Source: a virus. From it: a stretch of DNA of 20,789 nt. Of this stretch, positions 2,516 to 16,998 are shown piece by piece. Made by a program: the position numbers and the translations under genes. Positions within the stretch are counted from its first letter, which is position 1. Every line of letters begins with the position of its first letter. Under the pieces are notes generated by a model. That model was not told the origin of the DNA and did no database searches. It saw only the letters and a list, made by a program, of their open reading frames with translations. Location of the stretch: the IMG/VR virus record IMGVR_UViG_3300020469_000323, positions 1-20,789 of that record. The stretch is one strand, 5' to 3'.

Positions 2516-2546
2516 GATGGTTCCTTTCTAAATTAAACCAAGACTA

Positions 2547-2562: not shown

Positions 2563-2581
2563 CACTCGTTAATTTAACTTT

Positions 2582-2731: not shown

Positions 2732-2781
2732 GACCTTAATGACACTTAATGAAACCTATTGCAACCCTAAAGATTAAAGAA

Positions 2782-2795
2782 AGTTCAATTGAACT
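2782..2795. repeat. Palindrome AGTTCAATTGAACT, copy 1
   Basis: This is the first of five exact copies of a 14-bp perfect palindrome in the window. It lies in the intergenic control region, upstream of the leftward operon and about 300 bp upstream of terS, and downstream (leftward) of a minus-strand TATAAA-like box at 2820-2825. That placement would suit an operator for a dimeric DNA-binding protein. Confidence 0.75.
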
Positions 2796-2835
2796 AATCG
2801 GGGTTCGAGCGTGTATATATTTATACGGTGTATTG

Positions 2836-2873
2836 TGGGGGGCAAACGTACCTTTTGGGGGGCAGACGTACCT
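2836..2873. repeat. Tandem 18-bp repeat TGGGGGGCARACGTACCT (two copies)
   Basis: The copies are at 2836-2853 and 2856-2873, with a period of 20 bp and one A/G difference. Each has a run of six G followed by CARACGTACCT. They lie in the control region between divergent genes. They could be iteron-like binding sites or regulator sites; the G-runs also allow G-rich secondary structure. Confidence 0.7.
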
Positions 2874-2920
2874 AATGTAATGAAAACAATGACTTAGCAG
2901 AAAGAAGTGCCAAAAAGTGA

Positions 2921-2942
2921 GAACATATGCGGAACATATGTG
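2921..2942. repeat. Tandem 11-bp repeat GAACATATGYG (two copies)
   Basis: GAACATATGCG at 2921-2931 is immediately followed by GAACATATGTG at 2932-2942. The 11-bp period places both copies on the same face of the helix, as expected for cooperative binding of a regulator. It lies just upstream of the mini-ORF and terS. Confidence 0.65.
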
Positions 2943-2965
2943 TACATTTTAGCAAAGGAAGTTTT

Positions 2966-2983
2966 ATGAACTATACCCCATGA
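2966..2983 (+). other. Leader-peptide-like mini-ORF (MNYTP)
   Basis: A good AAGGAAG binding site (2955-2961) precedes a five-codon frame ending in TGA. A small GC hairpin follows 10 bp later. The arrangement looks like a translated leader ahead of terS, but chance is possible. Confidence 0.3.
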
Positions 2984-2992
2984 AACCTTAAA

Positions 2993-3006
2993 CCCTCTTC
3001 AGAGGG
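2993..3006 (+). terminator. Weak hairpin CCCTC-TTCT... before terS
   Basis: A 5-bp stem (CCCTC with GAGGG) encloses a short loop (TTCT-A region) and is followed by GGCTTATATT, which is only partly T-rich. It may be a weak terminator or attenuator of transcription reaching terS from further upstream. The second promoter-like box lies downstream of it at 3047. Confidence 0.3.
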
Positions 3007-3046
3007 GCTTATATTGGCTGTTAGAGCTATTTCTTGATTTGTTCTG

Positions 3047-3052
3047 TATAAT
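3047..3052 (+). promoter_or_regulatory. Candidate -10 box TATAAT for terS
   Basis: A perfect TATAAT lies 39 bp before the terS ATG, preceded by TTGTTCTG. The same TTGTTCTG precedes the TATACT box in front of the portal gene. No clear -35 hexamer is seen at 16-18 bp, so the upstream conserved TTGTTCTG may be what the polymerase or an activator recognises. Confidence 0.45.
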
Positions 3053-3090
3053 GGCTATGTTTGTTCCAAGTTAATTAAAAGGTTTGAGCA

Positions 3091-3612
3091 ATGCCAAAAG
3101 ATCAAGATCAAAACCACGATAAGGGCCAAGCGCCTAGCGTAGTTGTACCGATTACAGGTAAGAGTAGACAAAGAACCCCAAAGAACAATAGAGGGGTAAC
3201 AGATAAACAACAGGCATTTATTGAAGCCATAATAGAGGGTAACAATATAAGTGATGCTTATCGGCTGGCATATGATGCCAGTAATATGAGCAATGCAAGC
3301 ATACATGTAGAAGCGTGTAGGTTAGCAAAGAACCCTAATGTGTCACTAAGCTTAGATAGATATTATAATGATATAGAGGCGAATAACCGCTTGATGTCGC
3401 TCTCTCGAAGGGATCGTGTGATTTCAAAACTTGAACAAGTCGCACTGCGAGACGGTGAAGCTGACGGCACACAAGTTAGAGCTTTAGAACTGTTGGGTAA
3501 ATCTATGGGGCTATGGATTGATAAGGTAGAGACTGAGGATAAAACAGAACGTAATGAACAACAGCTAGAAAAAGATATTCAAAACAAATTAATTGCTCTA
3601 GGGATTAAATAG
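3091..3612 (+). CDS. terS: Terminase small subunit
   Basis: The 173-aa product has a disordered, charged N-terminus (1-35). A helix-turn-helix type domain follows, starting GVTDKQQAFIEAIIEGNNIS and continuing with DAYRLAYDASNMSNASIHVEACRLAKNPNV. This is the classic Terminase_2-like pattern: T-x-K-Q-x-x-F, then A-x-R-x-A-Y, then a conserved x-L-x-x-N-P-x-V. The C-terminal half is helical and charged, suited to oligomerisation. Small terminase subunits bind the packaging site and present DNA to the large subunit. Gene order supports this, with the large subunit next on the same strand. The distance to terL (about 600 bp, with an opposite-strand gene between) is unusual. The start ATG at 3091 has an AAGG some 10 bases upstream. 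The stop codon overlaps palindrome copy 2. Confidence 0.85.
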   Translation: MPKDQDQNHDKGQAPSVVVPITGKSRQRTPKNNRGVTDKQQAFIEAIIEGNNISDAYRLAYDASNMSNASIHVEACRLAKNPNVSLSLDRYYNDIEANNRLMSLSRRDRVISKLEQVALRDGEADGTQVRALELLGKSMGLWIDKVETEDKTERNEQQLEKDIQNKLIALGIK

Positions 3613-3624
3613 TTCAATTGAACT
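3611..3624. repeat. Palindrome AGTTCAATTGAACT, copy 2
   Basis: The palindrome starts on the second base of the terS stop codon (TAG), so it lies exactly at the 3' end of the gene, flanked by A/T on both sides. It is an exact copy. Confidence 0.75.
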
Positions 3625-3756
3625 TTATTGATTTATGGCAATACCCATTTAGTCTGGCTAGTATGTCGTGACCCCACCTACCCCCATGATAGTATATACT
3701 CGGTCGCACATACAACTTACATACATGGTGTTTCACACAAACAATTACTAAAAACT

Positions 3757-3849
3757 TTCAAATACCCCCCCCTTAGTTTTTGAGTGCCAATATCACTATT
3801 GAGAAATATATTTGGTTTTTTAGAAAAGGGGTAGGTTCACATACCCCCC
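3757..3849. repeat. Two TTCAMATACCCCCC repeats in a noncoding gap
   Basis: Copies are at 3757-3772 (run of eight C) and 3836-3849 (run of six C). A related C-rich stretch (ACCCCACCTACCCCC) lies near 3672-3687. The region from 3625 to 3850 shows no supportable gene on either strand. On the minus strand these are G-runs. The position between terS and terL makes this a candidate part of a packaging (pac/cos) or replication site, which is speculation. Confidence 0.45.
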
Positions 3850-3854
3850 TATTA

Positions 3855-4004
3855 TTATTTTTGAGCTTTTTTCCAAGCCTCTATGCGTTCCCAGTCTCTT
3901 TCGGCTTTTAGTGAGTTTGCTTTGCTATTGCTGTGTCGGCAATCATCATTCGGGCTTGCTCCGCATTTGGGACAGGGTTCGTTTAGTTGTCTTAGACTAT
4001 TCAT
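3855..4004 (-). CDS. 49-aa zinc-ribbon-like protein
   Basis: The gene has an excellent binding site (GGAGATGA) before the ATG at 4004 and ends in TAA at 3855-3857. The product begins MNSLRQLNEPCPKCGASPND and contains C11-x2-C14-x7-C22-x-H24, a plausible metal-binding set, followed by a charged helix with two Trp (about residues 33-48). It resembles the small C-P-x-C-G-A-x-P-x-x-x-C-R zinc-finger proteins known from many phages. It sits alone on the minus strand between terS and terL, divergent from terL across an AT-rich inverted repeat. A nucleic-acid-binding regulatory role is possible but not shown. Confidence 0.7.
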   Translation of the reverse strand: MNSLRQLNEPCPKCGASPNDDCRHSNSKANSLKAERDWERIEAWKKAQK

Positions 4005-4018
4005 AATTTCATCTCCCT

Positions 4019-4124
4019 AGTATATATATATATTATATTATATATATTATATATTAATATATCTCTCTCTTAAAGAGAGAGATTATATATATATTAATTA
4101 TTATATATATATTATATATTACAC
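4019..4124. repeat. AT-rich inverted repeat between divergent genes
   Basis: About 105 bp is almost pure A/T, mostly alternating TA, centred on a perfect inverted repeat with 11-bp arms ATCTCTCTCTT (4061-4071) and AAGAGAGAGAT (4073-4083) around a single A. The flanking TATATAT and TATTAATAT tracts extend the symmetry imperfectly to both sides. It lies upstream of terL (start 4209) and of the minus-strand zinc-ribbon gene (start 4004). It is easily melted and could extrude a cruciform. It may serve as a divergent promoter region, a replication origin, or part of the packaging site. The 80 bp from 4125 to 4208 hold only the terL leader with its GGAGG. Confidence 0.7.
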
Positions 4125-4208
4125 GCGGATGTTTATTTATCCCATTTTCATCCACGGTAGGCACTGTCTCCCACCCGATCAGTGTCTACCATTTGGGTGG
4201 AGGATACG

Positions 4209-5714
4209 ATGAAGCACGAGAAGATACTTGAACAACTTAAAAAGCTTCCATTGGAAGCTCAGGCAGATTTGCTTGCTGATCTCGAACAGCTTGAAGAGCT
4301 TAAGAACAAGAAGAAGGCTAAATCAGAGTTTTTGGCATTTACCAAAATGATGTGGCCTAGCTTTATTGGTGGTCGGCATCACAAAGTTATGGCTGAGGCA
4401 TTCGAACGTGTGGCTAGGGGAGAGTTGAAAAGGCTTATCATCAACATGCCACCCCGTCACACCAAGTCAGAGTTTGCGTCTTATCTTCTTCCCGCTTGGT
4501 TCTTGGGGCAGTACCCAGAGAAAAAAGTTATTCAGACAGCCCACACTGCAGAACTGGCTGTGGGCTTTGGTCGTAAGGTCAGGAACCTGATACAGGGCGA
4601 AGACTTCAAGAAGGTGTTTCAGGGAATAGATCTATCGTCAGACTCAAAAGCTGCGGGTCGTTGGAACACAAACAAGCGAGGTGACTACTTCGCGATTGGT
4701 GTCGGCGGTGCGGTAACGGGTAAAGGTGCGGATCTATTGATCATAGATGACCCTCACAGCGAACAGGACGCCCAACAAGGGCAGTTTAACCCCGAAGTGT
4801 ACGACAGGGTGTACGAATGGTATACATCTGGCCCCAGACAGCGTCTACAGCCCGGAGGGGCAATCATCATTGTGATGACCAGATGGTCAAAAAGGGATCT
4901 GACTGGACAGATTGTGAATAAATCTGCTGAGAGGATAGGTTCTGACGAATGGGAAGTCATAGAGTTCCCTGCACTTATGCCTTCTGGTCAACCATTATGG
5001 CCTGAGTTTTGGAAACAGGACGAACTAGAGGCGATTAAGGCCGAAATCCCTGTTGGGAAGTGGTCTGCACAGTACCAACAAGACCCCACATCGGAAGAAG
5101 GGGCGTTAATTAAGCGAGAATGGTGGAGAAATTGGGAAAAAAGCCACCCACCTGCTTGCGAAGCCATCATCCAGTCGTGGGATACTGCGTTTTTGAAGAC
5201 AGAACGCTCTGACTACAGCGCTGTAACCACATGGGGGGTGTTTTATCACCCAGATGACACGGGAGAGATGGCTCCTAACCTGATTATGCTAGACGCATAC
5301 AAAGAAAAGCTAGAGTTTCCAGAATTGAAGAAGGCTGCATACGACAAATACTGGGAATATGAGCCAGATCAGCTTGTGGTGGAGAAAAAAGCGTCTGGTG
5401 CGCCTTTGATATTCGAACTTAGAGCTATGGGATTACCCGTTACAGAGTTTACTCCATCAAGAGGACAAGATAAGATAGCTCGTGTAAACGCAGTTTCTGA
5501 CTTATTTGCCAGTGGTATTGTCTGGTGTCCAGATACTAGGTTTGCAGACGAGGTGATTGAAGAGGTGGCTTCTTTCCCTGCGGGAGATCACGATGATTAT
5601 GTTGACTCGATGTCACAAGCATTGATACGTTTCCGCCAAGGCGGTTGGATTAGATCTCCAACTGATGAATGGGATGACGAGCCAAGTTACAGAAGACCAG
5701 TAGAATATTATTAA
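4209..5714 (+). CDS. terL: Terminase large subunit
   Basis: The start is the ATG at 4209, preceded by GGAGGATACG; an in-frame GTG at 4182 lacks a binding site. The 501-aa product has both terminase halves. The N-terminal ATPase has a deviant P-loop NMPPRHTKSE (about 79-88), Walker B LLIIDDP (about 176-182) and the VMTRW coupling motif (222-226). The C-terminal RNase H-like nuclease has SWDTA with D325, VVEKKASG with E392, and an acidic DDYVDSMSQAL (462-472). The protein cuts concatemeric DNA and pumps it through the portal. In most relatives the P-loop reads R-H-G-K-S; here Thr replaces that Gly. Length is normal for the family. A short N-terminal coiled coil (1-40) may contact TerS or the portal. 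Confidence 0.96.
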   Translation: MKHEKILEQLKKLPLEAQADLLADLEQLEELKNKKKAKSEFLAFTKMMWPSFIGGRHHKVMAEAFERVARGELKRLIINMPPRHTKSEFASYLLPAWFLGQYPEKKVIQTAHTAELAVGFGRKVRNLIQGEDFKKVFQGIDLSSDSKAAGRWNTNKRGDYFAIGVGGAVTGKGADLLIIDDPHSEQDAQQGQFNPEVYDRVYEWYTSGPRQRLQPGGAIIIVMTRWSKRDLTGQIVNKSAERIGSDEWEVIEFPALMPSGQPLWPEFWKQDELEAIKAEIPVGKWSAQYQQDPTSEEGALIKREWWRNWEKSHPPACEAIIQSWDTAFLKTERSDYSAVTTWGVFYHPDDTGEMAPNLIMLDAYKEKLEFPELKKAAYDKYWEYEPDQLVVEKKASGAPLIFELRAMGLPVTEFTPSRGQDKIARVNAVSDLFASGIVWCPDTRFADEVIEEVASFPAGDHDDYVDSMSQALIRFRQGGWIRSPTDEWDDEPSYRRPVEYY

Positions 5715-5716
5715 TT

Positions 5717-5729
5717 GTTCTGCTATACT
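5717..5729 (+). promoter_or_regulatory. Candidate extended -10 promoter GTTCTGCTATACT
   Basis: TGC-TATACT matches an extended -10 element and sits 30 bp before the portal ATG, in the 44-bp gap after terL. The preceding TTGTTC is shared with the terS box at 3038-3052. No good -35 is visible, as is usual for extended -10 promoters. Confidence 0.45.
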
Positions 5730-5758
5730 GATGAAAGAACTTTTGCAAAGGACAGATC

Positions 5759-8203
5759 ATGGCAATCGAAAAGCAAATGACACCCTTCGAATTAGAGGAT
5801 GATGATCAGGAAGAGGCAGTGCAGGTTGAAATAGTCAATCCTGAAGCCGTTTCTATGGAGACAGAGGATGGCGGCATCATTATCGATTTTGAAGGAGACA
5901 TTAGCGAAGAGCTTTTAGGGGGCGAAGGCCATGATCAAAACCTTGCGGAGGTTATTGATGAGGATGTTCTCCAGTCAATGGCAAGCGATCTTGTTTCTGA
6001 CTTTCAGTCAGATCAGGAAAGCAGGTCAGATTGGGCGAGGGCATACGTCAAGGGATTAGATCTTCTAGGAATGAAGGTCGAGGACAGACAGCAGCCGTGG
6101 GCGGGTGCTTCAGGGGTGTTTCACCCGATACTTACGGAAGCTGTTGTCCGTTTCCAAGCACAGGCTATGGGAGAGATATTCCCTGCTTCAGGGCCAGTGC
6201 GAACTAAAATTGTTGGAAAGAGTGACACCGAAAAGAAAGATCAGGCATTTCGTGTAGAAAACGAGATGAACTATTTGCTTACCGAAGAAATGTCTGAGTA
6301 CCGCGATGAGATGGAGCAGATGCTATTCAAGCTCCCCATTGCAGGTTCTGCATTTAAGAAAGTTTATTACGATCCATTGATGGAAAGACCATGCTCTATG
6401 TTCGTTCCATCAGAAGATTTCGTTGTGTCTTACGGGGCATCAGATTTAAAAACATGCCCAAGATACACGCATGTGATGAAAAAAACATCGAATGAGGTTC
6501 TACAGCTACAGGTAAACGGCTTCTACCGTGATGTAGATCTTCCAGACCCTGAACCAGACTACTCTGATATTAAGCAAAAGTACGATGAGTTGGATGGCGA
6601 AGAGGCGGTCATTGATGATGATGACCGCCATACAATTCTGGAGATGCATGTCGATATGAACATGCCAGAAGAGTTTGATGATCCTGATGGGATTGCTCGG
6701 CCTTATGTGGTCACAATCGATAAGTCATCAAGAGAAGTATTATCCATCAGAAGAAACTGGTACGAGGACGATGAAAAGAAAAAGAAACGTATGCATTTCG
6801 TACATTACCGATACCTACCGGGCTTGGGATTTTACGGCACAGGACTTATTCACCTCATTGGAGGCTTGGCGAAATCAGCCACCTCAATACTTCGACAACT
6901 TATTGATGCGGGTACGCTATCGAATTTACCTGCAGGTCTTAAAGCTCGCGGTCTCCGTATCAAAGGTGATGATACGCCTCTCATGCCGGGTGAGTTCAGG
7001 GATGTGGACGTACCGGGCGGTGCTATCCGTGACTCAATTACATTTATTCCTTATAAAGAGCCATCAAGCGTACTCTACTCGCTACTCGGAAATATCGTTG
7101 AAGAAGGGCGCAGAATAGGTTCTGTTGCCGATGTACAGGTAGGCGATACAAACCCACAGGCTCCAGTAGGAACAACCCTAGCTCTCATGGAAAGATCCAT
7201 GAAAGTGATGTCTGGGGTGCAAGCAAGACTACATGCTGCACTTAAGCAGGAACTAAGAATACTCGCTAAAATAATTCACGACAATATGGCTTCAGAGTAT
7301 TCCTATGAAATTGAAGGCGAGTTCAACAGAACAGAAGACTTTGATGGTCGTATTGATGTTATTCCCGTTTCAGATCCAAATGCAGCAACAATGTCACAAA
7401 GGGTGATGCAGTATCAGGCGGCACTTCAGCTTGCACAGCAAGCACCGCAACTATACGACATGGGAAAACTACACAGGCAAATGCTAGAAGTTCTGGGAAT
7501 TAGTGAAGCAGCCGACATCATTAAGCTTCCAGAAGACATCAAACCAAAAGATCCAGTTTCAGAAAACATGGCTATTTTGAAACAAGAGCCTGTCAAAGCG
7601 TTTATGTATCAGGATCACGAGGCACACATCCAAGTGCATATGGCAGCAATGCAAGATCCAAAGATACAGCAGATCGTGGGTCAGTCTCCCTTTGCAGGGG
7701 CGATACAGAGCGCAATGTCATCACACATAACCGAACACGTTGCCTATCAGTATCGCAAAGAGATACAGCTACAGCTAGGTGTGGAAATGCCAAGCGAAGA
7801 TCAAGCGCTTCCAGAAGACACAGAAGAAGAGATCTCTCGTCTTGCGGCAGACGCAGCTCAGAAGCTACTCGGCAAAAATCAAGCAGAGGTTGCACAGCAA
7901 CAAGCACAAGAAGCAGCGCAAGATCCACTTACACAGATCCAACAGCGAGAGCTTGCAATCAAAGAGCAAGAGCTTAAGCACAAAATGGAAATGGATAGAG
8001 CAAGTCTTGATCTGGATGCAACAACCAAGATCGGTAACTTGGATCTACAGGCTGAAAGAATTAAATCTGAGAACAAACGTGCAGGTGCATCTATTGGTGC
8101 TAGGATTGCTACAGAGCTAGATAAGGAGCAGCGTAAAGATAAACGCGAGGGAACGAAGCTAGGATTAGAAATAGCCAGAGAGCTTGATAAATCCAGTGAC
8201 TGA
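5759..8203 (+). CDS. Portal protein (P22-like, long form)
   Basis: The 814-aa product has an acidic N-terminus (1-70) and a portal core containing RSDWARAYVKGLDLLGMK, QPWAGASGVFHPILTEAVV and GEIFPASGPVRTKI, a set typical of P22-type portals. A GLGFYGTGLIHLIGGLAK stretch near 355-375 and a TLALMERSMKVMSGVQ region follow. The C-terminus (about 680-814) is a Gln/Glu/Lys-rich coiled coil, comparable to the long barrel of P22 gp1. The portal is the dodecameric gate for DNA entry and exit and the nucleus of head assembly. Its place right after terL fits. The ATG has AAAGGA about 10 bases upstream. The last eight bases overlap the next gene. Confidence 0.92.
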   Translation: MAIEKQMTPFELEDDDQEEAVQVEIVNPEAVSMETEDGGIIIDFEGDISEELLGGEGHDQNLAEVIDEDVLQSMASDLVSDFQSDQESRSDWARAYVKGLDLLGMKVEDRQQPWAGASGVFHPILTEAVVRFQAQAMGEIFPASGPVRTKIVGKSDTEKKDQAFRVENEMNYLLTEEMSEYRDEMEQMLFKLPIAGSAFKKVYYDPLMERPCSMFVPSEDFVVSYGASDLKTCPRYTHVMKKTSNEVLQLQVNGFYRDVDLPDPEPDYSDIKQKYDELDGEEAVIDDDDRHTILEMHVDMNMPEEFDDPDGIARPYVVTIDKSSREVLSIRRNWYEDDEKKKKRMHFVHYRYLPGLGFYGTGLIHLIGGLAKSATSILRQLIDAGTLSNLPAGLKARGLRIKGDDTPLMPGEFRDVDVPGGAIRDSITFIPYKEPSSVLYSLLGNIVEEGRRIGSVADVQVGDTNPQAPVGTTLALMERSMKVMSGVQARLHAALKQELRILAKIIHDNMASEYSYEIEGEFNRTEDFDGRIDVIPVSDPNAATMSQRVMQYQAALQLAQQAPQLYDMGKLHRQMLEVLGISEAADIIKLPEDIKPKDPVSENMAILKQEPVKAFMYQDHEAHIQVHMAAMQDPKIQQIVGQSPFAGAIQSAMSSHITEHVAYQYRKEIQLQLGVEMPSEDQALPEDTEEEISRLAADAAQKLLGKNQAEVAQQQAQEAAQDPLTQIQQRELAIKEQELKHKMEMDRASLDLDATTKIGNLDLQAERIKSENKRAGASIGARIATELDKEQRKDKREGTKLGLEIARELDKSSD

Positions 8204-8384
8204 TCCATTAATTCTAGTAATCAAAGGTAAGATAGCTGAATACAAAAGTTCAATTGAACTTTTTCTTGCTGAGGGCGGTGCTAAAACGCAAGAAGATTAC
8301 GTCAAGCTAACAGGAAAGTACGAAGCTTTTAGAATTATAGAAGAAGATTTATCGGAAATTGAAAAAAGATATATTGAAAGCTAA
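8196..8384 (+). CDS. Small helical protein after the portal, 62 aa
   Basis: I place the start at the GTG at 8196, which overlaps the portal stop by eight bases; a TTG at 8184 is in frame but less likely. The product runs (M)TDPLILVIKGKIAEYKSSI and is a two-helix, charged protein containing FLAEGGAKTQEDYVKLTGKYEA. Small proteins of this pattern (I-x-x-x-L-x-x-G-x-A-K-x-x-x-x-Y-x-x-x-x-G-x-x-x) commonly follow the portal gene in short-tailed phages. Their function is unknown to me. Palindrome copy 3 lies inside the gene and encodes S-S-I-E-L-F. Confidence 0.7.
   Translation: MTDPLILVIKGKIAEYKSSIELFLAEGGAKTQEDYVKLTGKYEAFRIIEEDLSEIEKRYIES
8247..8260. repeat. Palindrome AGTTCAATTGAACT, copy 3 (inside a gene)
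   Basis: An exact copy inside the 62-aa gene. With its flanks the symmetry extends to 20 bp (AAAAGTTCAATTGAACTTTT), which in RNA is a stem of eight A/U-rich pairs followed by U residues. Confidence 0.75.
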
Positions 8385-8426
8385 AAACTTTTTAGTTAAG
8401 TTCTGATTATTCGCGGATAATCCGCG
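8381..8426 (+). promoter_or_regulatory. Paired inverted repeats before the GroES-like gene
   Basis: The 85-bp gap before the GroES-like gene holds two inverted repeats. One is CTAAAAA-C-TTTTTAG at 8381-8395, overlapping the stop codon of the previous gene. The other is CGCGGAT-A-ATCCGCG at 8412-8426. Between them is GTTCTGATTATTC (8400-8412), a weaker form of the promoter-like motif before terS and portal. The GC palindrome has almost no loop, so it is more likely a protein-binding site than an RNA hairpin. Confidence 0.45.
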
Positions 8427-8469
8427 CAAGGTAACTGTGAACCTTTAAATCACTGCAAATGGGTGCAAT

Positions 8470-9806: not shown

Positions 9807-9807
9807 T

Positions 9808-10251: not shown

Positions 10252-10257
10252 CCAAAA

Positions 10258-10271
10258 AGTTCAATTGAACT
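10258..10271. repeat. Palindrome AGTTCAATTGAACT, copy 4
   Basis: An exact copy in the 65-bp gap before the capsid-associated gene, seven bases after the preceding stop codon. With flanks it reads AAGTTCAATTGAACTT. It is the only notable element in that gap besides the GGAGAAAGAG binding site. Confidence 0.75.
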
Positions 10272-10316
10272 TCTAGGGAGCTTTCTTAATTTTAATTTGG
10301 TTAGGAGAAAGAGCAA

Positions 10317-10919: not shown

Positions 10920-10930
10920 GAGACTGACTA

Positions 10931-11836
10931 ATGGCTATTTCACGCGCACAGCTCCTTAAAGAGCTACTTCCCGGCCTAAACGCATTGTACGGCTTGGAAT
11001 ACGACAAATACGAAAATGAACACTCAGAAATTTATGAGACAGAAACTTCAGACAGAAGCTTTGAAGAAGAAGTCAAATTAAGTGGTTTTGGGGCGGCTCC
11101 TGTGAAAGCAGAAGGTGCAGCAATTTCGTATGATAACGCACAAGAGCATTATACTGCTCGATACAACCATGAGACCGTTGCAATGGGTTTCTCTGTCACT
11201 GAAGAAGCGATGGAAGACAACTTGTACGACTCATTGTCTGCTCGATATACAAAAGCACTAGCTCGCGCTATGGCTTATACCAAGCAGACTAAGGCTGCAG
11301 CTTTGTTGAACACAGGTTTTACAAGCTTCAACTCAGGTGATGGCGTTACATTGTTTAGTACTTCACACCCAACTGTCGGTGGTGGTACAAACGCTAACAG
11401 GCTTGCAGTAAATGCAGACTTGAACGAAACCTCACTAGAGCAAGCAGTTATTGATATTTCAGCGTTCACAGATGAACGTGGATTATTGATCGCGGCTCGC
11501 CCTCGTAAGTTAATCGTTCCACCTGCGCTAATGTTCGTGGCAACAAGACTGCTACAGACAGAGCTTCGCACTGGTACAGCGGATAACGATACAAACGCAT
11601 TGCGTTCAAATGGATCAATCCCTGAAGGCTATCGTGTGAATCACTATCTAACGGACACAGATGCGTTCTTCATCACAACAGATATTCCAAATGGTATGAA
11701 GCATTTCGAGCGTACCGCTATGGCAACATCTATGGATGGAGATTTCGATACAGGTAATGTTCGCTACAAAGCTCGTGAGCGTTATTCTTTTGGTGTATCA
11801 GATCCATTAGGAATGTTTGGTTCCCCCGGAGCGTAA
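10931..11836 (+). CDS. Major capsid protein (HK97-fold, Mu gpT-like)
   Basis: The 301-aa product has the features of compact HK97-fold capsid proteins without a long prodomain. These are LLPGLNALYGLEYDKYENEHSE at the N-terminus and FEEEVKLSGFG; a central helix region ALARAMAYTKQTKAAALLNT; then PRKLIVPPALMFVATRLLQT (about 190-210), which corresponds to the 'P-x-x-L-V-V-P-x-x-L' strand and helix of Mu gpT-like capsids. DAFFITTDIP and ARERYSFGVSDPLGMFG close the protein. It builds the icosahedral shell. AGGAG stands 9 bases before the ATG, and a strong terminator follows, consistent with high expression. Confidence 0.88.
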   Translation: MAISRAQLLKELLPGLNALYGLEYDKYENEHSEIYETETSDRSFEEEVKLSGFGAAPVKAEGAAISYDNAQEHYTARYNHETVAMGFSVTEEAMEDNLYDSLSARYTKALARAMAYTKQTKAAALLNTGFTSFNSGDGVTLFSTSHPTVGGGTNANRLAVNADLNETSLEQAVIDISAFTDERGLLIAARPRKLIVPPALMFVATRLLQTELRTGTADNDTNALRSNGSIPEGYRVNHYLTDTDAFFITTDIPNGMKHFERTAMATSMDGDFDTGNVRYKARERYSFGVSDPLGMFGSPGA

Positions 11837-11892
11837 ACTATGGTATAGAAGAAGTGTCCCTCTAAAGGGGATATTTACTTCTCCCGGTAAAT

Positions 11893-11926
11893 AGGGGCAG
11901 CTTGCAGGAGTTGCCCCTTTCTTTTT
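11893..11926 (+). terminator. Intrinsic terminator after the major capsid gene
   Basis: AGGGGCA (11893-11899) pairs with TGCCCCT (11912-11918) around a 12-base loop and is followed by TTCTTTTT. This is a classic rho-independent terminator 57 bp after the capsid stop, separating head genes from the following small-protein operon. Confidence 0.85.
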
Positions 11927-11952
11927 AAAAAAACTATGTTATGGTCTTTTTA

Positions 11953-12032
11953 GGGGCAACATTAGCCTTGCAGACAGGACACTCCCCGACCTGACGTTGC
12001 ACAGACTGCTAGGCAAAACCTTGTGCAAGGGG
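11953..12032 (+). promoter_or_regulatory. Structured leader with alternative pairings before the 74-aa gene
   Basis: The 100 bases after the terminator hold no gene but several complementary segments. GTTGC at 11996-12000 can pair with GCAAC at 11956-11960. Alternatively TTGCACA (11997-12003) pairs with TGTGCAA (12022-12028), whose last two bases belong to the AAGGGG ribosome binding site. GGGG (11953-11956) can pair with CCCC (11984-11987). The two GTTGC pairings exclude each other. This could be a translational control element or a fortuitous fold. Confidence 0.35.
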
Positions 12033-12040
12033 TATTTATT

Positions 12041-12265
12041 ATGGCATCAACTACATTTTCAGGCCCAGTGACATCTTCTGATGGATTTGTTGGTCTTATC
12101 ACATTAACAAGCTACACAGTTGCAGCCGCACCTTCCGCTGCTACAGCAGGTGCAGGTACTATAGCGTACATTTCAAATGGCGCTGCAGGTGCTGCTATCT
12201 TGGCTTTCTCTGACGGAACAAACTGGAAGCGTTCCGATACAGGCGCAACCATTTCAGCTTCATAG
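12041..12265 (+). CDS. Small virion-like protein, 74 aa
   Basis: The ATG at 12041 has AAGGGG eight bases upstream; an in-frame GTG at 12023 is less likely. The product (MASTTFSGPVTSSDGFVG...) is Ala/Gly/Thr/Ser-rich and beta-like. It ends with the pattern I-S-N-G-A-A-G-A-A-I-L-A-F-S-D-G-T-N-W-K-R, which is common in phage structural proteins (x-S-D-G-x-x-G-x-P-x-x-A-x-x-D-G-x-x-W). Likely a minor head or fibre component; no enzymatic motif. Confidence 0.65.
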   Translation: MASTTFSGPVTSSDGFVGLITLTSYTVAAAPSAATAGAGTIAYISNGAAGAAILAFSDGTNWKRSDTGATISAS

Positions 12266-12272
12266 GTGAATT

Positions 12273-12482
12273 ATGAGTAGATTTTCACCACCAAGTGTTG
12301 AAGAACTGGCGGCTCGTGGGTTAGACCCAGATGGAAACCCACTAAAAGTATGGACTAACAAAGTTCGCGCAAGAAACAGCGATGGAACGCTTAAAGCAGA
12401 TGATCCCTCCACACCTGATGTAAATGAGGCATGGGAAGAATCACCTGTTAAAAAGCGCGGTCGCCCTAAGAAGAAAGGGTAA
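12273..12482 (+). CDS. Small protein with AT-hook-like C-terminus, 69 aa
   Basis: The start has AGGTGA upstream. Residues 1-30 resemble a short conserved phage motif (PPSVEELAARGLDPDGNP), the middle is acidic and the end is KKRGRPKKKG. The R-G-R-P core flanked by lysines is the AT-hook signature for minor-groove binding of A/T-rich DNA. This is the only part with a functional hint. It belongs to a run of very basic small proteins that may associate with DNA in the capsid (inference). Confidence 0.65.
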   Translation: MSRFSPPSVEELAARGLDPDGNPLKVWTNKVRARNSDGTLKADDPSTPDVNEAWEESPVKKRGRPKKKG

Positions 12483-12485
12483 GCT

Positions 12486-12755
12486 ATGTCTAGTGATGTA
12501 AAGGCAAAGCGTGTCACAGGAACAGGCTCACTCGCAGTTGGCCCTGCTCGCATACGGCAGATACATGTTTTATCAGGATCGGGTACACCCCGATTAACTA
12601 TCTCAGATGGTAACGGTGGGGCTACAGTTCTAGATTTGGATCTAAAAGCTTCTGACGTTCATGCTGTCAATATCCCAGACGATGGGATTAGAGTTAGTGA
12701 TATTCATGTAGCTACTGCTACGGCACTAACAGCTATAACAATATTCTTTAATTAA
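12486..12755 (+). CDS. Small beta-rich structural protein, 89 aa
   Basis: The gene lies four bases after the previous stop with AAAGGGTAAG as binding site. The product (MSSDVKAKRVTGTGSLAVGP...) has alternating hydrophobic strands and Gly/Thr turns (RIRQIHVLSGSGTPRLTISD, DLKASDVHAVNIPDDGIRVS). It looks like a compact all-beta head-surface, neck or fibre component. Proteins of this size and pattern occur in the same place in marine phages; no specific function is known to me. Confidence 0.65.
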   Translation: MSSDVKAKRVTGTGSLAVGPARIRQIHVLSGSGTPRLTISDGNGGATVLDLDLKASDVHAVNIPDDGIRVSDIHVATATALTAITIFFN

Positions 12756-12759
12756 TGTT

Positions 12760-13050
12760 ATGGCTGCTCGCAAGGGAACTATGAAGGGTCACTCCATCAA
12801 GGGGGGGCAAAAACGCCCCACCAAAAAAGGTGCGGGTATGACCGCTAAAGGTGTAGCTAAGTACCGTAGGGATAACCCCGGTTCTAAGCTTAAAACCGCT
12901 GTGACTGGCACAGTTAAAAAAGGTAGTAAGGCTGCGAAAAGACGTAAGTCTTATTGCGCTAGATCTGCAGGTCAGATGAAGCAGTTTCCAAAAGCAGCAA
13001 AAGATCCAAACAGTCGCCTGAGACAGGCTAGAAAAAGATGGAAATGTTGA
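12760..13050 (+). CDS. Very basic Lys/Arg-rich protein, DUF6321-like, 96 aa
   Basis: The N-terminus is Lys/Gly-rich (MAARKGTMKGHSIKGGQKRP). A conserved domain follows with KYRRDNPGSKLKTAVTG and KKGSKAAKRRKSYCARSAGQ, then RLRQARKRWKC at the end. I recognise the K-Y-R-x-x-N-P-G-S-x-L-x-T-A-V / K-G-S-K-A-A-x-R-R-K-S-[FY]-C-A-R pattern from phage proteins annotated as DUF6321. Two cysteines (residue 67 and the last residue) are notable. No clear Shine-Dalgarno is seen, so translation may be coupled to the previous gene. Probably binds DNA or other virion parts; unproven. Confidence 0.75.
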   Translation: MAARKGTMKGHSIKGGQKRPTKKGAGMTAKGVAKYRRDNPGSKLKTAVTGTVKKGSKAAKRRKSYCARSAGQMKQFPKAAKDPNSRLRQARKRWKC

Positions 13051-13208
13051 TGAAAGCGCAAGACGTATTAACGATTATGGAAAAGCATGAAAAAGAGTCT
13101 GATAGACGTTTTGAGCGTATCGAGAAGCAACTAGAACGTCTTGATATGCGGTTGTGGGGCATTGCCGTCTTAATCATTGCTGCGGCTGTAGCGGGAAGGT
13201 TTTTATAA
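13050..13208 (+). CDS. Tail-anchored membrane microprotein, XhlA-like, 52 aa
   Basis: The ATG at 13050 shares its A with the preceding TGA (TGATG) and has GGAA upstream; an in-frame ATG at 13044 would add two residues. The product has a charged coiled-coil helix (residues 8-34, EKHEKESDRRFERIEKQLER) and a C-terminal membrane span (about 35-50, LWGIAVLIIAAAVAG). This is the architecture of haemolysin XhlA, a phage protein that works with holins in lysis. The short length fits. It could instead be another virion membrane factor. No endolysin gene is seen in this window. The stop overlaps the next ATG (TAATG). Confidence 0.7.
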   Translation: MKAQDVLTIMEKHEKESDRRFERIEKQLERLDMRLWGIAVLIIAAAVAGRFL

Positions 13209-13711
13209 TGGCTATCTCAAGATCGAATATGAGCAAACAGATAAAGTCAGGTAAGATGAAAAAGAAAGTTGTTAAGAAAAAGAGTGGCAGCAAAGTGCTT
13301 GGTAGTATCAGTCCATTATATGGAATGATTTCGGGTGAGGGTGCTTTTGGTAAACTGGCAAGTGCAGGTTTTAGCCCTGCGGGTATGCTCGCAAAGCAAC
13401 AAAAGAAAAAGAAGCAGATGCGAGCGCAAGAAGCAGTCCCTGTTGCAAAAAATGGTGGTAGCATGATGTCTACTGGCGATGATGCAAAAGACTTAAGTAT
13501 TGTTCGCATGGGTAAAGGTGGTAGCCCCAAGAAGAAGTCTAAGAGCCGCGTCAACGAGGCAGGTAATTATACAGATCCTGCAAAGCGTAAACGTATATTC
13601 AATAGAATAAAGGCAGGTGGAAAGGGTGGCGCTCCGGGCCAATGGTCAGCCAGAAAAGCCCAAATGATGGCAAAAGCTTATAAAAAAGCAGGTGGAGGCT
13701 ACAGAGACTAA
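13208..13711 (+). CDS. Basic protein with DUF5872-like C-terminus, 167 aa
   Basis: The ATG at 13208 overlaps the previous TAA by one base, so an upstream in-frame start at 13154 is unlikely. Residues 1-30 are Lys-rich. A Gly/Ser/Pro segment follows (SISPLYGMISGEGAFGKLAS, 33-52), then a second Lys/Gln stretch. The C-terminus (about 113-167) is a compact domain with RVNEAGNYTDPAKRKRIFN, AGGKGGAPGQWSARKAQMMA and the ending YKKAGGGYRD. I know this G-x-W-S-A-R-K-A-Q-x-x-A-x-x-Y-x-x-x-G-G-G-Y pattern from phage and giant-virus proteins labelled DUF5872. Function unknown, presumably nucleic-acid or virion associated. Confidence 0.75.
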   Translation: MAISRSNMSKQIKSGKMKKKVVKKKSGSKVLGSISPLYGMISGEGAFGKLASAGFSPAGMLAKQQKKKKQMRAQEAVPVAKNGGSMMSTGDDAKDLSIVRMGKGGSPKKKSKSRVNEAGNYTDPAKRKRIFNRIKAGGKGGAPGQWSARKAQMMAKAYKKAGGGYRD

Positions 13712-14241
13712 TGGGAGAAATAGAGAGAGATCTTAGAAGTTGGTCGAGTGAGGTTTTAGAAGTACCGAACCAGAACCTAAAAGGTCTTTCTCCATGCCCC
13801 TACGCTAAGAATGCTTGGGAAAAAGATAAAGTATTAGTTGTGCAAACAGATGATATATATGCAGACAGCCTAAAACATTGTTCTGATTTTATCCTATCTA
13901 ATAAGGAGCTTGTTGTTGTCGCTTCATATGAAGTTCCAGAATTAGATAAATTTAATAAATATGTTCAAAACCTTAATATACTTTTTGATAATCTACATTG
14001 CATGGAATTTCATCCCGATTACGGTGCGGATGATGCAAACCTAGACTTTCTTTCAGATAATGACTGGGAAAGCTTAATAGATAGACACTATTGTATGGTG
14101 TTTATTCAAGACCTAGAACAGGTGGTTCGAGCAAGTGATAAGTTGCATACTTTAGGTTACTATGATGTGTATCCTGATGAAGAGTATGAAGAATTAGTCG
14201 TTAACAGAAAAAGGAGACTTGACGATGGCTATGAAACCTAG
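13711..14241 (+). CDS. Conserved hypothetical protein, 176 aa
   Basis: The start overlaps the previous stop (TAATG). Unlike its basic neighbours the protein is acidic, with no Lys/Gly tracts. It contains LKGLSPCPYAKNAWEKDKV (about 23-41), LHCMEFHPDYGADDAN (about 95-110) and a C-terminal YYDVYPDEEYEELV. The C-P-[FY]-A-K motif followed by F-H-P-x-Y recalls DUF1415 proteins, but only loosely, and I cannot confirm homology. The Cys (29) and His residues might bind a metal or be catalytic. It has low-GC codons typical of the window. Its last 17 bases overlap the start of the 43-aa repeat protein. Confidence 0.7.
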   Translation: MGEIERDLRSWSSEVLEVPNQNLKGLSPCPYAKNAWEKDKVLVVQTDDIYADSLKHCSDFILSNKELVVVASYEVPELDKFNKYVQNLNILFDNLHCMEFHPDYGADDANLDFLSDNDWESLIDRHYCMVFIQDLEQVVRASDKLHTLGYYDVYPDEEYEELVVNRKRRLDDGYET

Positions 14242-14356
14242 AGCTATGAAAAAGAAGCCAGTTGCTATGAAGCGTGGTGGAAAGAAAATGATGCGTGGCG
14301 GTATGGCTAAAAAGCCTATGGCTATGAAACGTGGCGGCAAAGCGAAGAAAAAGTAA
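14225..14356 (+). CDS. 43-aa Lys/Met repeat protein
   Basis: A strong AAGGAG lies inside the end of the previous gene, about eight bases before the ATG at 14225, and the stop overlaps the next ATG (TAATG). The product is built of short repeats of A-M-K-[RK] and R-G-G-[KM], including PVAMKRGGK and PMAMKRGGK, and contains only nine kinds of residue. There are about 17 Lys and 5 Arg in 43 residues, with no acidic residue. It cannot fold in the usual way and would bind DNA or RNA like a protamine. Short Lys/Gly/Met repeat peptides of this kind recur in marine phage head modules. Function inferred only from composition. Confidence 0.7.
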   Translation: MAMKPRAMKKKPVAMKRGGKKMMRGGMAKKPMAMKRGGKAKKK

Positions 14357-14607
14357 TGCCTCTAAAGAAGTCACAGAAAAGTCTTAAGAATTGGACTAAG
14401 CAAAAATGGCGTACCAAAAGCGGTAAGCCATCTACGCAAGGTCGTAAGGCTACTGGTGAGAGATACCTGCCTTCTGCAGCCATAAAATCCCTTAGCGCTG
14501 CTGAGTATTCAGCTACCTCCCGTGCTAAGAGAAAAGGTAAGAAGGCAGGTAAACAGCATGTGGCTCAACCCAAAAAGATAGCAAAGAAAACAAGAGGGTA
14601 TAGATAG
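14356..14607 (+). CDS. Basic conserved protein, 83 aa
   Basis: The product is a Lys/Arg-rich protein with the recognisable stretch KNWTKQKWRTKSGKPSTQG, then KATGERYLPSAAIKSLSAAE and YSATSRAKRKGKKAGKQHV, ending KKIAKKTRGYR. I know the W-x-K-Q-x-W-x-T-x-S-G-K-x-S-x-Q-G-x-x-A-T-G-E-R-Y-L-P pattern from small phage and giant-virus proteins without assigned function. The net charge is strongly positive. It probably binds nucleic acid; a role in the virion is suggested by its place between head and adaptor genes. Confidence 0.75.
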   Translation: MPLKKSQKSLKNWTKQKWRTKSGKPSTQGRKATGERYLPSAAIKSLSAAEYSATSRAKRKGKKAGKQHVAQPKKIAKKTRGYR

Positions 14608-14609
14608 CA

Positions 14610-14855
14610 ATGCCCCGAAATTATAGAAAAGAATACGATAGTTACCACAAATCTTCTACACAGAAGAAGAAAAGAGCATCTCGAAACACGGCACGATCTA
14701 AGATGGTTAAAGCAGGTAAGGCAAAAAAAGGTGATGGAAAAGACGTTGATCACAAGAATGGAAACCCTCGTGATAACTCTAGAAAAAACCTTACGATGAA
14801 AACAAAAGCTAAAAACAGGAGTTTCCCTAGAAACTCTAAAGCCAAGAAACGGTAG
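14610..14855 (+). CDS. Minimal HNH-motif protein, 81 aa
   Basis: The product begins MPRNYRKEYDSYHKSSTQKK. After a basic helix it carries KDVDHKNGNPRDNSRKNLTM (44-63), matching the HNH core: D47-H48, then N56, then N60-L61, with a following K-A-K-N-R-S-F. In HNH homing and packaging nucleases the pattern is x-D-H-x-[ND]-G-N-x-x-[DN]-N-x-x-x-N-L-x-x-x-T-x-x-x-N. No flanking Cys pairs or second domain are present, so the protein is a bare motif in a very basic scaffold. Phage HNH proteins near terminase genes assist DNA cutting during packaging; here it lies instead among head completion genes. It may be a nuclease or only a DNA binder. Confidence 0.7.
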   Translation: MPRNYRKEYDSYHKSSTQKKKRASRNTARSKMVKAGKAKKGDGKDVDHKNGNPRDNSRKNLTMKTKAKNRSFPRNSKAKKR

Positions 14856-14861
14856 GATAAA

Positions 14862-15539
14862 ATGGCAGTCGTTACACCAGATTTACCTGACATATTTGAA
14901 GAAGCTTATGAACGCGCAGGTCTAGAGCTAAACACAGGTTACGACCTTCGAACAGCGAGGCGTAGCCTTAATATCATGTTGCTCGAATGGCAGAACAGAG
15001 GCCTCAATCTTTTTACGGTTGATTCAGGTGTTTTAAATCTAAGCTCAGGAACAGCAACCTACTCTATGCCCATAGACACTATAGATGTAATCGAGCATCA
15101 AATAAGGACTGGAACAGGAACAAATCAAGTTGATGCAGCATTGCAACGCATATCTGTATCTACTTACGCAGCTCAATCTAATAAAAATACACAGGGTAAG
15201 CCTAGTCAAATATTTGTTCAAAGACTGGCTACAGAAACAAAAGTAACACTTTGGCCCGTTCCTGACACAGATTATATTTTGGCTTTTCATCGATTAAAGG
15301 GAATAGATGGCTTGGCAACGGGCGTTGGCACAACAGCGGCTATACCGCCTAGGTTTGTTCCGTGTCTTGTTGCAGGTCTTGCATATCAAATAGCTATGAA
15401 AAAACCAGAAGCAATAGCCAGAGTTGTTCCTTTAAAGCAAGAATATGAATATCAGTTTGAGCTTGCAGCAGGTGAAGATGCTGAAACAGCATCAATCAAA
15501 TTTGTGCCATACAATACATTTATGTTAGGTGGTGGATGA
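14862..15539 (+). CDS. Head-tail adaptor protein (P22 gp4-like)
   Basis: The 225-aa product starts MAVVTPDLPDIFEEAYERAG and continues DLRTARRSLNIMLLEWQNRG (about 28-47), the signature of the gp4-type adaptors that sit below the portal. A beta domain follows with GVLNLSSGTATYSMPIDTID, TLWPVPDTDYILAFHRL (about 130-146) and PPRFVPCLVAGLAYQIAMKK (about 162-181). Adaptors close the DNA-filled head and connect to the tail. The length is near that of P22 gp4 (166) plus an insertion. GTAGGATAAA supplies the ribosome binding site. The stop overlaps the next start (ATGA). Confidence 0.8.
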   Translation: MAVVTPDLPDIFEEAYERAGLELNTGYDLRTARRSLNIMLLEWQNRGLNLFTVDSGVLNLSSGTATYSMPIDTIDVIEHQIRTGTGTNQVDAALQRISVSTYAAQSNKNTQGKPSQIFVQRLATETKVTLWPVPDTDYILAFHRLKGIDGLATGVGTTAAIPPRFVPCLVAGLAYQIAMKKPEAIARVVPLKQEYEYQFELAAGEDAETASIKFVPYNTFMLGGG

Positions 15540-16390
15540 CAACTGCTAGAAGTAAATATGCTTTCGGTTTCTGCGACAGAACTGGCTTCAGGTATCCGCT
15601 GAATGAGCTTGTTGATGAGTTCAAGAATGGCGTAAAGACTGGACTAAGAGTTGGTCGGGATGTTGCTGATGGCGATCATCCTCAAAACTTTTTGGGCAGG
15701 GTTAGAATATTTGATCCTCAAAGTCTTGCACACGCTAGGCCAGATAGGTCTTTAGAAGAAAGCAGACAGTTGTTTGGATTTTCTCCTGTATGGAACCCTG
15801 CTCAATTTATGACAGGAGCTGTTGGTAGAGTTGCCATAAGTTTCGATGAGGGCGTGGTGAACGTTACAGGTTCTTCAGCCTCATCTTCTGTTGGCTCTGT
15901 TGTGGCTAATACATATAGCGCAAATCTAACTGCTCCAAATGCCGCTGTAGGTGCGGTTGGGACGGTTACCCTACTAGGCGTAGGAATAACTGCATTTCCA
16001 AATGGTGTTTCTGCCGTGGGAACTACAGGCGTAGCTACTTTATCTACCAATGTAGCACAATCTTTCGCAGTTACTGTAACTACAGGGTATAGTGGTGGTA
16101 ATAAGTTTTACATCGATGGTATAGAATCTCCTACAGGAAATCTTAGCGAAGGAAATACCTACATATTTGATCAATCACATTCGAGTAATAGTGGTCACCC
16201 ACTAAGGTTTTCAACAACATCAAACGGAACCCATTCAGGTGGTGTGGAGTACACAACAGGCGTTACAACTAGCGGAACCCCCGGAAACGCAGGTGCTTAT
16301 ACTCAGATCGTGATAGCTTCGGGCGCACCAACATTACACTACTATTGCACTAACCATAGTGGTATGGGAGGCCAAGTGAATACACCTTAA
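15536..16390 (+). CDS. Structural protein with C-terminal cupredoxin-like domain
   Basis: The 284-aa product has two parts. The N-terminal ~95 residues form a conserved head-neck domain (SKYAFGFCDRTGFRYPLNEL, then GLRVGRDVADGDHPQNFLGR), followed by a repetitive Gly/Val/Thr linker (about 96-180, for example VGTVTLLGVGITAFP). The C-terminal domain (about 188-280) carries SGHPLRFST with H221, and HYYCTNHSGMGGQV with C271, H274 and M277. His ... Cys-x2-His-x2-Met is the full type-1 copper ligand set, with the same spacing as in amicyanin. A related domain occurs in the 405-aa fibre at 19121. Copper binding in the phage protein is inferred. It is probably a neck or fibre-attachment protein; the start overlaps the adaptor gene. 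Confidence 0.75.
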   Translation: MTTARSKYAFGFCDRTGFRYPLNELVDEFKNGVKTGLRVGRDVADGDHPQNFLGRVRIFDPQSLAHARPDRSLEESRQLFGFSPVWNPAQFMTGAVGRVAISFDEGVVNVTGSSASSSVGSVVANTYSANLTAPNAAVGAVGTVTLLGVGITAFPNGVSAVGTTGVATLSTNVAQSFAVTVTTGYSGGNKFYIDGIESPTGNLSEGNTYIFDQSHSSNSGHPLRFSTTSNGTHSGGVEYTTGVTTSGTPGNAGAYTQIVIASGAPTLHYYCTNHSGMGGQVNTP

Positions 16391-16423
16391 CGGTAGATTT
16401 GAAAATTTAAACATGTTAAAATA

Positions 16424-16437
16424 AGTTCAATTGAACT
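16424..16437. repeat. Palindrome AGTTCAATTGAACT, copy 5
   Basis: An exact copy in the 61-bp gap, 34 bp after the previous stop. It is followed directly by TTTTTGGAGGGCAAG, the binding site of the 177-aa gene, so RNA folding or protein binding here could affect translation or termination. Confidence 0.75.
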
Positions 16438-16451
16438 TTTTGGAGGGCAAG

Positions 16452-16985
16452 ATGGCACAAACAGGAAGAAACTTACCAAGAACTAAGCGCACTATGGAAT
16501 CTAGGGAAGGTAAGCAAGGTAAGCGCTCAAAAAGCACAACTAAAAAAGTTGTTGATGCTGTTAAAAGAGGTATAAAAAATCAACCTATTGTTAAAGGACT
16601 TACCAATATTCGCAACAAGGCTCGCAGTAGCCTTCAAAGAGCAGCAGACAAAGGGCGTAATAATACTTTTACAAAGCTTGAGGCAGGAGCAGATACAAAA
16701 AGAAAAGCTGCAGAAGTTCGTAAGAAAAAAGATCCAAAAAATCAATCTTTGCGACCTAAAATTAGACCAAAATCAATACCCCTAACTACTTCTTTAAGAC
16801 CAAAAAAAAGACCCACAAAGAAATCAGCAGAGGGTGGAAGCCTTAAGTCGGTTCCCGAAAGCAATAATGGTTTGAAGAAACTCCCTACGGCTGTTCGTAA
16901 CAAGATGGGATACATGCAAAAAGGTGGTTCCTGTGGTGGTATGGGTAAGGCTGTTAGAGGCGGCAACTTTAGTAGAAACGGATAA
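16452..16985 (+). CDS. Basic low-complexity protein, 177 aa
   Basis: The ATG at 16452 follows TGGAGGGCAAG; an in-frame TTG at 16431 lies in the palindrome and is rejected. The product is strongly basic. It contains Lys/Arg helices (residues 1-90), a SLRPKIRP/SLRPKKRP repeat (about 105-125), and a C-terminal motif LPTAVRNKMGYMQKGG followed by GMGKAVRGGNFS. The N-K-M-G-[YF]-M-[KQ]-x-G-G ... G-M-G-x-A-x-x-G-G-x-F motif is one I associate with small proteins of marine phages. It probably binds DNA or anchors to other virion proteins; its function is unknown. Its TAA overlaps palindrome copy 6 by one base. Confidence 0.7.
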   Translation: MAQTGRNLPRTKRTMESREGKQGKRSKSTTKKVVDAVKRGIKNQPIVKGLTNIRNKARSSLQRAADKGRNNTFTKLEAGADTKRKAAEVRKKKDPKNQSLRPKIRPKSIPLTTSLRPKKRPTKKSAEGGSLKSVPESNNGLKKLPTAVRNKMGYMQKGGSCGGMGKAVRGGNFSRNG

Positions 16986-16998
16986 GTTCAAATGAACT
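16985..16998. repeat. Palindrome variant AGTTCAAATGAACT, copy 6
   Basis: The arms AGTTCA and TGAACT are intact and only the centre differs (AA instead of AT). The last base of the previous stop and the ATG of the SU10-type adaptor both lie inside the element, so it sits on a stop-start junction with no room for a Shine-Dalgarno. Confidence 0.65.

Follow-up and report, generated by a model that had tools for sequence, protein, structure and literature searches.

A dispersed GTTC-N4-GAAC palindrome in an aquatic phage family: a possible operator-like array with a phage-encoded binder

The 20,789-bp virus record IMGVR_UViG_3300020469_000323 of IMG/VR (hereafter the window, meaning this whole stretch of DNA) carries seven copies of a short palindrome made of two inverted GTTC half-sites four nucleotides apart. 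Genomes of an aquatic phage family with marine and freshwater members hold some 10 to 25 dispersed copies of the word each. To the following explanation we give roughly an even chance: the copies form a dispersed operator-like, stoperator-like array that is bound by a phage-encoded dimeric protein and acts as a roadblock to transcription. The window, part of the genome of an uncultivated phage, encodes an SU10-type portal, a terminase, a GroES-like protein and a major head protein. It has a 98% identical sister of 53,167 bp, G017. The terminase large subunit (TerL) of the window shares 60% identity with that of phage 023Pt_psg01 and 52 to 59% with those of HTVC027P, HTVC023P and DSL-LC04, its head protein is 72.6% identical to that of Planktothrix phage Pag-Yong1, and portal homologs occur in nine genome-collection contigs of mixed phyla.

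An initial annotation had reported six copies, five exact (2782, 3611, 8247, 10258 and 16424) and one with an altered centre (16985). All six are present at these positions and lie where it had placed them relative to genes (2782 in a divergent gap, 8247 inside a small open reading frame (ORF), the other four at gene junctions); its count was incomplete, since the copy at 10589 has intact arms too. The sites are listed below with their fate in alignments to the related records G017, G019, G018, G024 and G001; TerS is the terminase small subunit.

2782 to 2795, no strand: site 1, AGTTCAATTGAACT, in the divergent gap 2515-3091, upstream of TerS; kept in G017, G019 and G018, not kept in the G001 alignment, unaligned in G024.
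3611 to 3624, no strand: site 2, AGTTCAATTGAACT, across the TerS stop codon; kept in all five records, with a varying centre.
8247 to 8260, no strand: site 3, AGTTCAATTGAACT, within the 66-aa ORF 8184-8384 after the portal gene; kept in all five records.
10258 to 10271, no strand: site 4, AGTTCAATTGAACT, in the gap separating ORFs 9808-10251 and 10317-10919; kept in G017, G019 and G024, a gap in G018, unaligned in G001.
10589 to 10602, no strand: site 5, AGTTCATTCGAACT, arms intact, within the 200-aa ORF 10317-10919; kept in G017, G019 and G024, lost in G018, unaligned in G001.
16424 to 16437, no strand: site 6, AGTTCAATTGAACT, at the junction after ORF 15536-16390, ahead of the Shine-Dalgarno sequence of the next gene; kept in G017, the other four records being unaligned.
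16985 to 16998, no strand: site 7, AGTTCAAATGAACT, altered centre, at a gene junction and enclosing the start codon (ATG) of gene 16992-17651; retained in G017 and G018, with a site at the same place in G002 and G007.
7320 to 7333, no strand: doubtful site, AGTTCAACAGAACA, within the portal gene; inner arms GTTC/GAAC intact, flanks not A/T rich; the word recurs in G019 at 25476.

The copy number exceeds chance, as the initial annotation had claimed. From composition, about 0.00015 exact 14-mers and about 0.02 AGTTCN4GAACT are expected in the window; in 300 order-2 Markov simulations AGTTCN4GAACT averaged 0.03 copies (maximum 3) and the exact word never arose. When up to three mismatches are allowed, the 14-bp palindrome has eight matches in the window against a mean of 1.57 and a largest value of 5 in 100 dinucleotide shuffles, and at spacing 4 no other 4-base arm is as frequent as GTTC (eight occurrences; the next has 4).

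Among the best 80 of at least 599 loci with a portal homolog, 38 contain AGTTCN4GAACT, with 63 sites over 687 kb. Aligned, 63 sites with non-identical flanks (seven from the window) have arms that are fixed by construction; their flanks are A-rich on the left and T-rich on the right, a trend already noted in the initial annotation, their centre is variable (AATT, AAAT, AATA, TATT and others), and beyond about 4 bp from the site they have no sequence in common. This last property speaks against chance or a neutral repeat spreading by copying, an explanation that has nothing but the repetition in its favour and is contradicted also by the simulations and by the conservation of the arms (see below), and we regard it as practically negligible. 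The sister G017 has 19 GTTC-N4-GAAC sites that span the whole 53 kb, through late, early, coding, non-coding and convergent regions. A/T flanks accompany 17 of these 19, against 0.4 expected, and a matrix built from them yields 20 hits of at least 12 bits in G017, against 0 to 1 in three simulations. Eight other records (29 to 66 kb, some of them fragments) have 7 to 14 sites each, hybrids of two different half-sites not counted.

The complete genomes of HTVC027P, 023Pt_psg01 and HTVC023P and 50 kb of DSL-LC04 contain no A/T-flanked GTTC/GTTC site and 0 to 1 hybrids. In the control phages CRP-901, GB2A, MW202675, MW202785, CRP-7 and pVa5 (40 to 50 kb each; simulation for the first four only) any 6-base inverted repeat reaches at most three copies. 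In a homology-blind scan of viral contigs with the 16-mer AAGTTCAATTGAACTT, 68 of the 80 loci listed belong to the same family by protein hits, and the other 12 have one site in eleven cases and two in one; among these 12, L444 in fact comes from the G018 contig. The records compared are related and partly near-duplicates (the window and G017, G002 and G020, G004 and G005), so that counts over records are not independent.

The arms are retained beyond what the similarity of the genomes accounts for. G017 and G019 are 92% identical, and none of the 104 arm bases in their 13 aligned sites has changed; every one of these sites is kept, where local identity predicts that 6.9 would be. The corresponding figures for G017 sites are 6 of 9 against 2.0 expected in G018, 5 of 5 against 0.9 in G024 and 6 of 7 against 1.6 in G001. 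Retention of 7 out of 7 in the window says little, because the two sequences are 98% identical and 6.1 are expected. Pooled, 30 of 34 aligned site comparisons are kept against 11.4 expected, a descriptive figure since the comparisons with G019, G018, G024 and G001 share lineages; intragenic sites alone give 11 of 13 against 4.3. Alignments of this kind indicate that purifying selection acts on the arms, also inside genes.

The motif drifts between clades, and on sequence evidence the clades differ in the half-sites that they tolerate. In the window, G017, G019, G018 and G001 few half-sites depart from GTTC: together these records have 52 GTTC/GTTC sites and 3 hybrids, with an overlap between the window and G017. 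Seven records (G002, G020, G021, G022, G009, G007 and G008) combine 58 GTTC/GTTC sites with 42 GTTC/GTGC hybrids and no GTGC/GTGC site; such hybrids number 5 to 7 per record against 0.1 to 0.6 expected, other single changes 0 to 2. G011 uses GTTA, at times paired with GTTC, in 13 sites that are partly at places common to its relatives: the ATPase/VWA junction, the end of a giant gene, and TerS. Pag-Yong1, a named isolate of 65 kb and 69% GC, has 25 copies of GTTCA-N3-TGAAC, that is, GTTC at spacing N5 (other spacings 0 to 1), as well as 8 GTCC hybrids (other changes 0 to 1); a DNA scan for its word returned, among the 80 loci listed, none with three or more copies.

Three records, OL906435.1, OQ594354.1 and PP438419.1, are each exactly 65,014 bp, are named after Planktothrix, Synechococcus and Planktothricoides, have identical scores and share two proteins that are 100% identical across all three. 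The host named for them may be wrong, because a GC content of 69% would be unusual in cyanobacteria of this kind. Two further records, G004 and G005, have just 2 and 1 GTTC/GTTC sites and 11 copies each of a different palindrome, GTAGTG-N3-CACTAC, which in G004 is restricted to the early region (L098-L100, 19979-32021; the G005 array is on L111-L112) and is probably a separate operator set with its own regulator. In HTVC023P (MN698239.1), TGTAGA-N-TCTACA occurs in 3 copies, barely over the maximum of 2 in five simulations.

The hybrids bear on whether the palindrome is read as DNA or as RNA. The initial annotation had offered RNA hairpins for processing or termination as a possible role, and sites that are perfect palindromes, often right upstream of a Shine-Dalgarno sequence, could be 5' stabilisers, processing signals or termination signals in mRNA. 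However, hybrids break the third arm pair, mid-stem, in 32 of 116 pooled sites, and the variable pair is G-U in none of the 116. Disruption of the stem by the GTTC/GTGC and GTTA/GTTC hybrids makes a DNA site bound by a dimer the better fit, and we consider an RNA hairpin very improbable. The GTCC hybrids of Pag-Yong1 argue neither way: of the 8, 4 break the pair and 4 give G-U in the sense transcript. As for termination, of 99 sites only 10 have a predicted intrinsic terminator within 35 nt, although random places would give 2.3; the arrangement is not fixed, and we rejected a terminator role. A promoter element was set aside too: sigma-70-like hits in positions 1-20000 of the window are fewer than in shuffles (26 against 37), and the 18 non-coding Pag-Yong1 sites have no promoter hexamers in common upstream.

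A host regulator, perhaps a LexA whose motif is GTTC-N4-GAAC, could also recognise such a word. Erill and colleagues reportedly described in 2016 a Verrucomicrobia LexA motif, TGTTC-N4-GAACA, which has both the GTTC half-site and the N4 spacing of the sites here. Its flanking base is the opposite one, however: of the 116 pooled sites, 70 have A..T at the pair adjoining the core and a single one has T..A. According to PMC8565304, LexA motifs vary widely and the alphaproteobacterial box is a direct repeat, GTTC-N7-GTTC; the present sites share its half-site and are inverted repeats at spacing 4, so the initial annotation was right to set them apart from it. Unlike LexA boxes, they are spread through late and coding DNA, and the tolerated half-site differs among sister phages with common structural genes. 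Across 8 of the 9 metagenome-assembled genomes holding related contigs, which may not be true hosts, the motif is nowhere clearly above its reversed control (largest excess 13 against 11). We judge a host regulator improbable.

Sites prefer the spaces between genes. Non-coding DNA is touched by 10 of the 19 sites in G017 against 1.4 expected, and the excess is present in 9 of 9 genomes tested (both with simple ORF calls); with the deposited annotation of Pag-Yong1 it is touched by 18 of 25 against 2.5. Eight of these 18, shown with the following gene, are 22 or 23 nt before its ATG, typically after a stop codon and ahead of the next Shine-Dalgarno sequence. Many sites of G017 and Pag-Yong1 lie within genes or operons, and the gene for a 2915-aa protein with an LPD38 domain (L158, 9553-18300) has sites within it. 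Taken with the arrays and the retained positions described above, this placement bears out all three parts of the check that the initial annotation had proposed: related genomes, enrichment at gene boundaries, and orthologous positions.

In the explanation preferred here, the palindrome would be a DNA site of the operator kind, some 12 to 20 bp long, with two GTTC half-sites 4 bp apart and, in the window clade, usually A/T flanks. A dimeric sequence-specific protein from the early module of the phage would bind the 10 to 25 or so places per genome and would most likely block passing RNA polymerase, as stoperators do; the phage genome might be kept quiet in this way, or its transcription partitioned, until the protein is removed. 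A roadblock to RNA polymerase is suggested because many sites are inside operons, between a stop codon and the next Shine-Dalgarno sequence, or inside genes, and, lacking a consistent promoter or terminator, they suit a roadblock by bound protein, as at the stoperators of Cluster A mycobacteriophages.

Those of L5 and Bxb1 are described in PMC6550527 as tens of short sites across the genome, 13 bp long, mostly not promoter associated and oriented with transcription; they are reportedly asymmetric and read by a monomeric repressor (PMC9283540). On these accounts, the array resembles stoperators in its dispersal (19 sites in G017 and 25 in Pag-Yong1, against 20 to 30) and in that the motif varies among related phages; it differs in that the sites are palindromic and 12 to 20 bp long. 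The phages differ too, being marine and freshwater ones: no tyrosine integrase (PF00589) and no ParB_N protein (PF02195) was found in 13 related records, some of them fragments, in a search that left out serine integrases and homologs of the mycobacteriophage repressor. A role for the sites in lysogeny is doubtful for this reason. The operators or stoperators proposed by the initial annotation are the best supported of its options, in so far as they mean DNA sites spread over the genome and recognised by a dimeric, diverging protein; the phage repressor that it suggested, and likewise a lysogenic state, would be conjecture.

The sites of ParB, Noc and KorB are dispersed perfect palindromes of 12 to 16 bp in several copies, and the present ones are like them in both respects. 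They might serve to organise, mark or segregate the genome, the bound protein compacting, protecting, tethering or labelling phage DNA in a Noc- or KorB-like manner with no direct role in transcription. This would suit sites that occur in early, late, coding and convergent regions with no consistent promoter or terminator nearby, and that are spaced more evenly than random (p<0.05) in five of nine genomes (G017.015, G019.009, G007.001, G021.043, G011.003). Yet evenness is not significant in the other four (G018.187, G020.168, G002.113, G022.277), the sequence is a different one, none of the 13 records has a ParB_N protein, and the frequent position after a stop codon and ahead of a Shine-Dalgarno sequence may only mean that room is available there. 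We see genome organisation as possible but rather unlikely.

For the roadblock explanation, the leading candidate binder is a protein that we call X. Three window genes are relevant:

1023 to 1730, minus strand: protein X, 235 aa, candidate binder, found in 14 of 14 motif-bearing records compared.
3 to 848, minus strand: MoxR-type ATPase (PHROG 1297), in the same early module as X, running off the window.
3091 to 3612, plus strand: TerS (PF03592), between sites 1 and 2, a rival binder.

By tblastn, X is present in all 14 motif-bearing records and in 0 of 8 others (the G011 copy is found via the G002 query only). At least one site accompanies X in 98 of 98 X loci examined, which together have 291 GTTC/GTTC sites where one simulation gave 6, and 177 hybrids where it gave 8. 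A site lies within 200 bp beyond X in 23 of 46 X loci, and two sites about 0.5 to 1.5 kb apart lie upstream of it in 39 of 46. Pag-Yong1 encodes at the X position, beside a MoxR ATPase, a protein that weakly matches the X profile (domain E 1.4e-5, single-sequence search), with a site 9 bp past its stop. Such co-occurrence makes X a tentative choice as the site-binding protein, somewhat short of an even chance. The genes for the MoxR-type ATPase (window 3-848) and a VWA protein (DUF2201, L157 18456-19610) adjoin X; the Pag-Yong1 ATPase also matches ATPases of Schitoviridae phages, such as Vibrio phage pVa5.

Most X members have a conserved helix pair with KEATxKRYxENS, which reads DAVAKKYIENS in the GTTA group. 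Two AlphaFold2 models have mean predicted local distance difference test (pLDDT) values of 77.6 and 84.5; the latter consists of helices, the C-terminal one long, and a hairpin of two strands. X has no PHROG match, the G017 copy matches 0 Pfam families at the cut-offs applied to single members, and 33 members give weak scattered Pfam hits only. Foldseek finds no PDB match to the models at E<=0.001, and BFVD gives one match, to an uncharacterised phage protein. VIA-align gives a best Z of 6.0 at a root-mean-square deviation of 25.4, the rest being mostly the long C-terminal helix or helical bundles, from which we draw nothing. The X profile has three matches in PDB sequences (best E 0.43), and tblastn finds no match in a phage collection.

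Other candidate binders were considered. An XRE-type helix-turn-helix (HTH) protein was rejected: HTH_3 matches occur in 7 of 13 records, 3 of them above cut-off, and in G017 there are 0. The case for an AlpA-like HTH protein is weakened in several ways: tblastn homologs are present in 10 of 14 motif records (the window, G001, G018 and G024 are without a hit), the HTH_17 profile also matches G004, which is without the array, and G002 and G007, despite their common motif, do not have the same putative recognition helix.

TerS, or another packaging protein, might bind the sites and create many packaging starts along the concatemer; the initial annotation had listed a packaging or replication protein among its options, and either might play a part. 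The window has sites on both sides of its TerS gene, X is accompanied by TerS in 88 of 96 loci, and the paired sites upstream of X could be read in the same sense. Typical pac sites are single, however, and G004 and G005 have TerS homologs together with their 2 and 1 GTTC/GTTC sites. A packaging role therefore seems to us quite improbable. Between sites 2 and 3, the stretch from TerS to TerL also holds AT-rich TATATA repeats (4018-4121), including a 14-bp palindrome, ATATATTAATATAT, at 4049.

Several observations weigh against a roadblock array bound by X. X is without a recognisable HTH profile or a confident PDB fold match, and its link to the sites is phyletic: because TerS, the ATPase, the VWA protein and a primase travel with X and recombinants do not decide, X is only a candidate. 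Recombinants with a window-like TerL and a G002-like X shift the hybrid share non-significantly (15:3 in G024, L236 and L237 together against 52:3 in the window clade, p=0.16). L152, L236 and L237 are apparent recombinants, with a TerL of window type (95%) and an X of G002 type (56 to 65%). The 20-kb fragment G003, one of the eight records without X, has 3 + 2 sites and no X in its 20 kb, a case that a fragment cannot settle. Some sites are at convergent gene ends, the sites are symmetric whereas stoperators are not, and the missing tyrosine integrase and ParB_N protein count against a lysogenic silencer.

The motif was not found in the papers searched, where GTTCAATTGAAC and TTCAGGCTGAAC each turn up in a single unrelated paper; a text search gave no mention of Pag-Yong1, and the text of a paper on HTVC023P-type phages (PMC9599517) contains none of the terms 'palindrom', 'operator' and 'promoter'. 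The genome-wide stoperator arrays that surfaced in the search are those of actinobacteriophages.

A bolder reading, which we advance as a possibility well below even, is that X, from an unstudied family with no recognised fold match, binds the 20 or so spread palindromes and coats, silences or organises the genome of apparently non-lysogenic phages, and that X and its sites diversify as a pair between clades in the way of an immunity specificity. Clade-specific binding could be predicted from site sets of this strength, which makes the question testable. A palindromic, fast-diverging array in aquatic phages, a named isolate among them, offers a handle on an unstudied candidate DNA-binding protein and bears on the control or organisation of a whole genome in phages that show no lysogeny genes.

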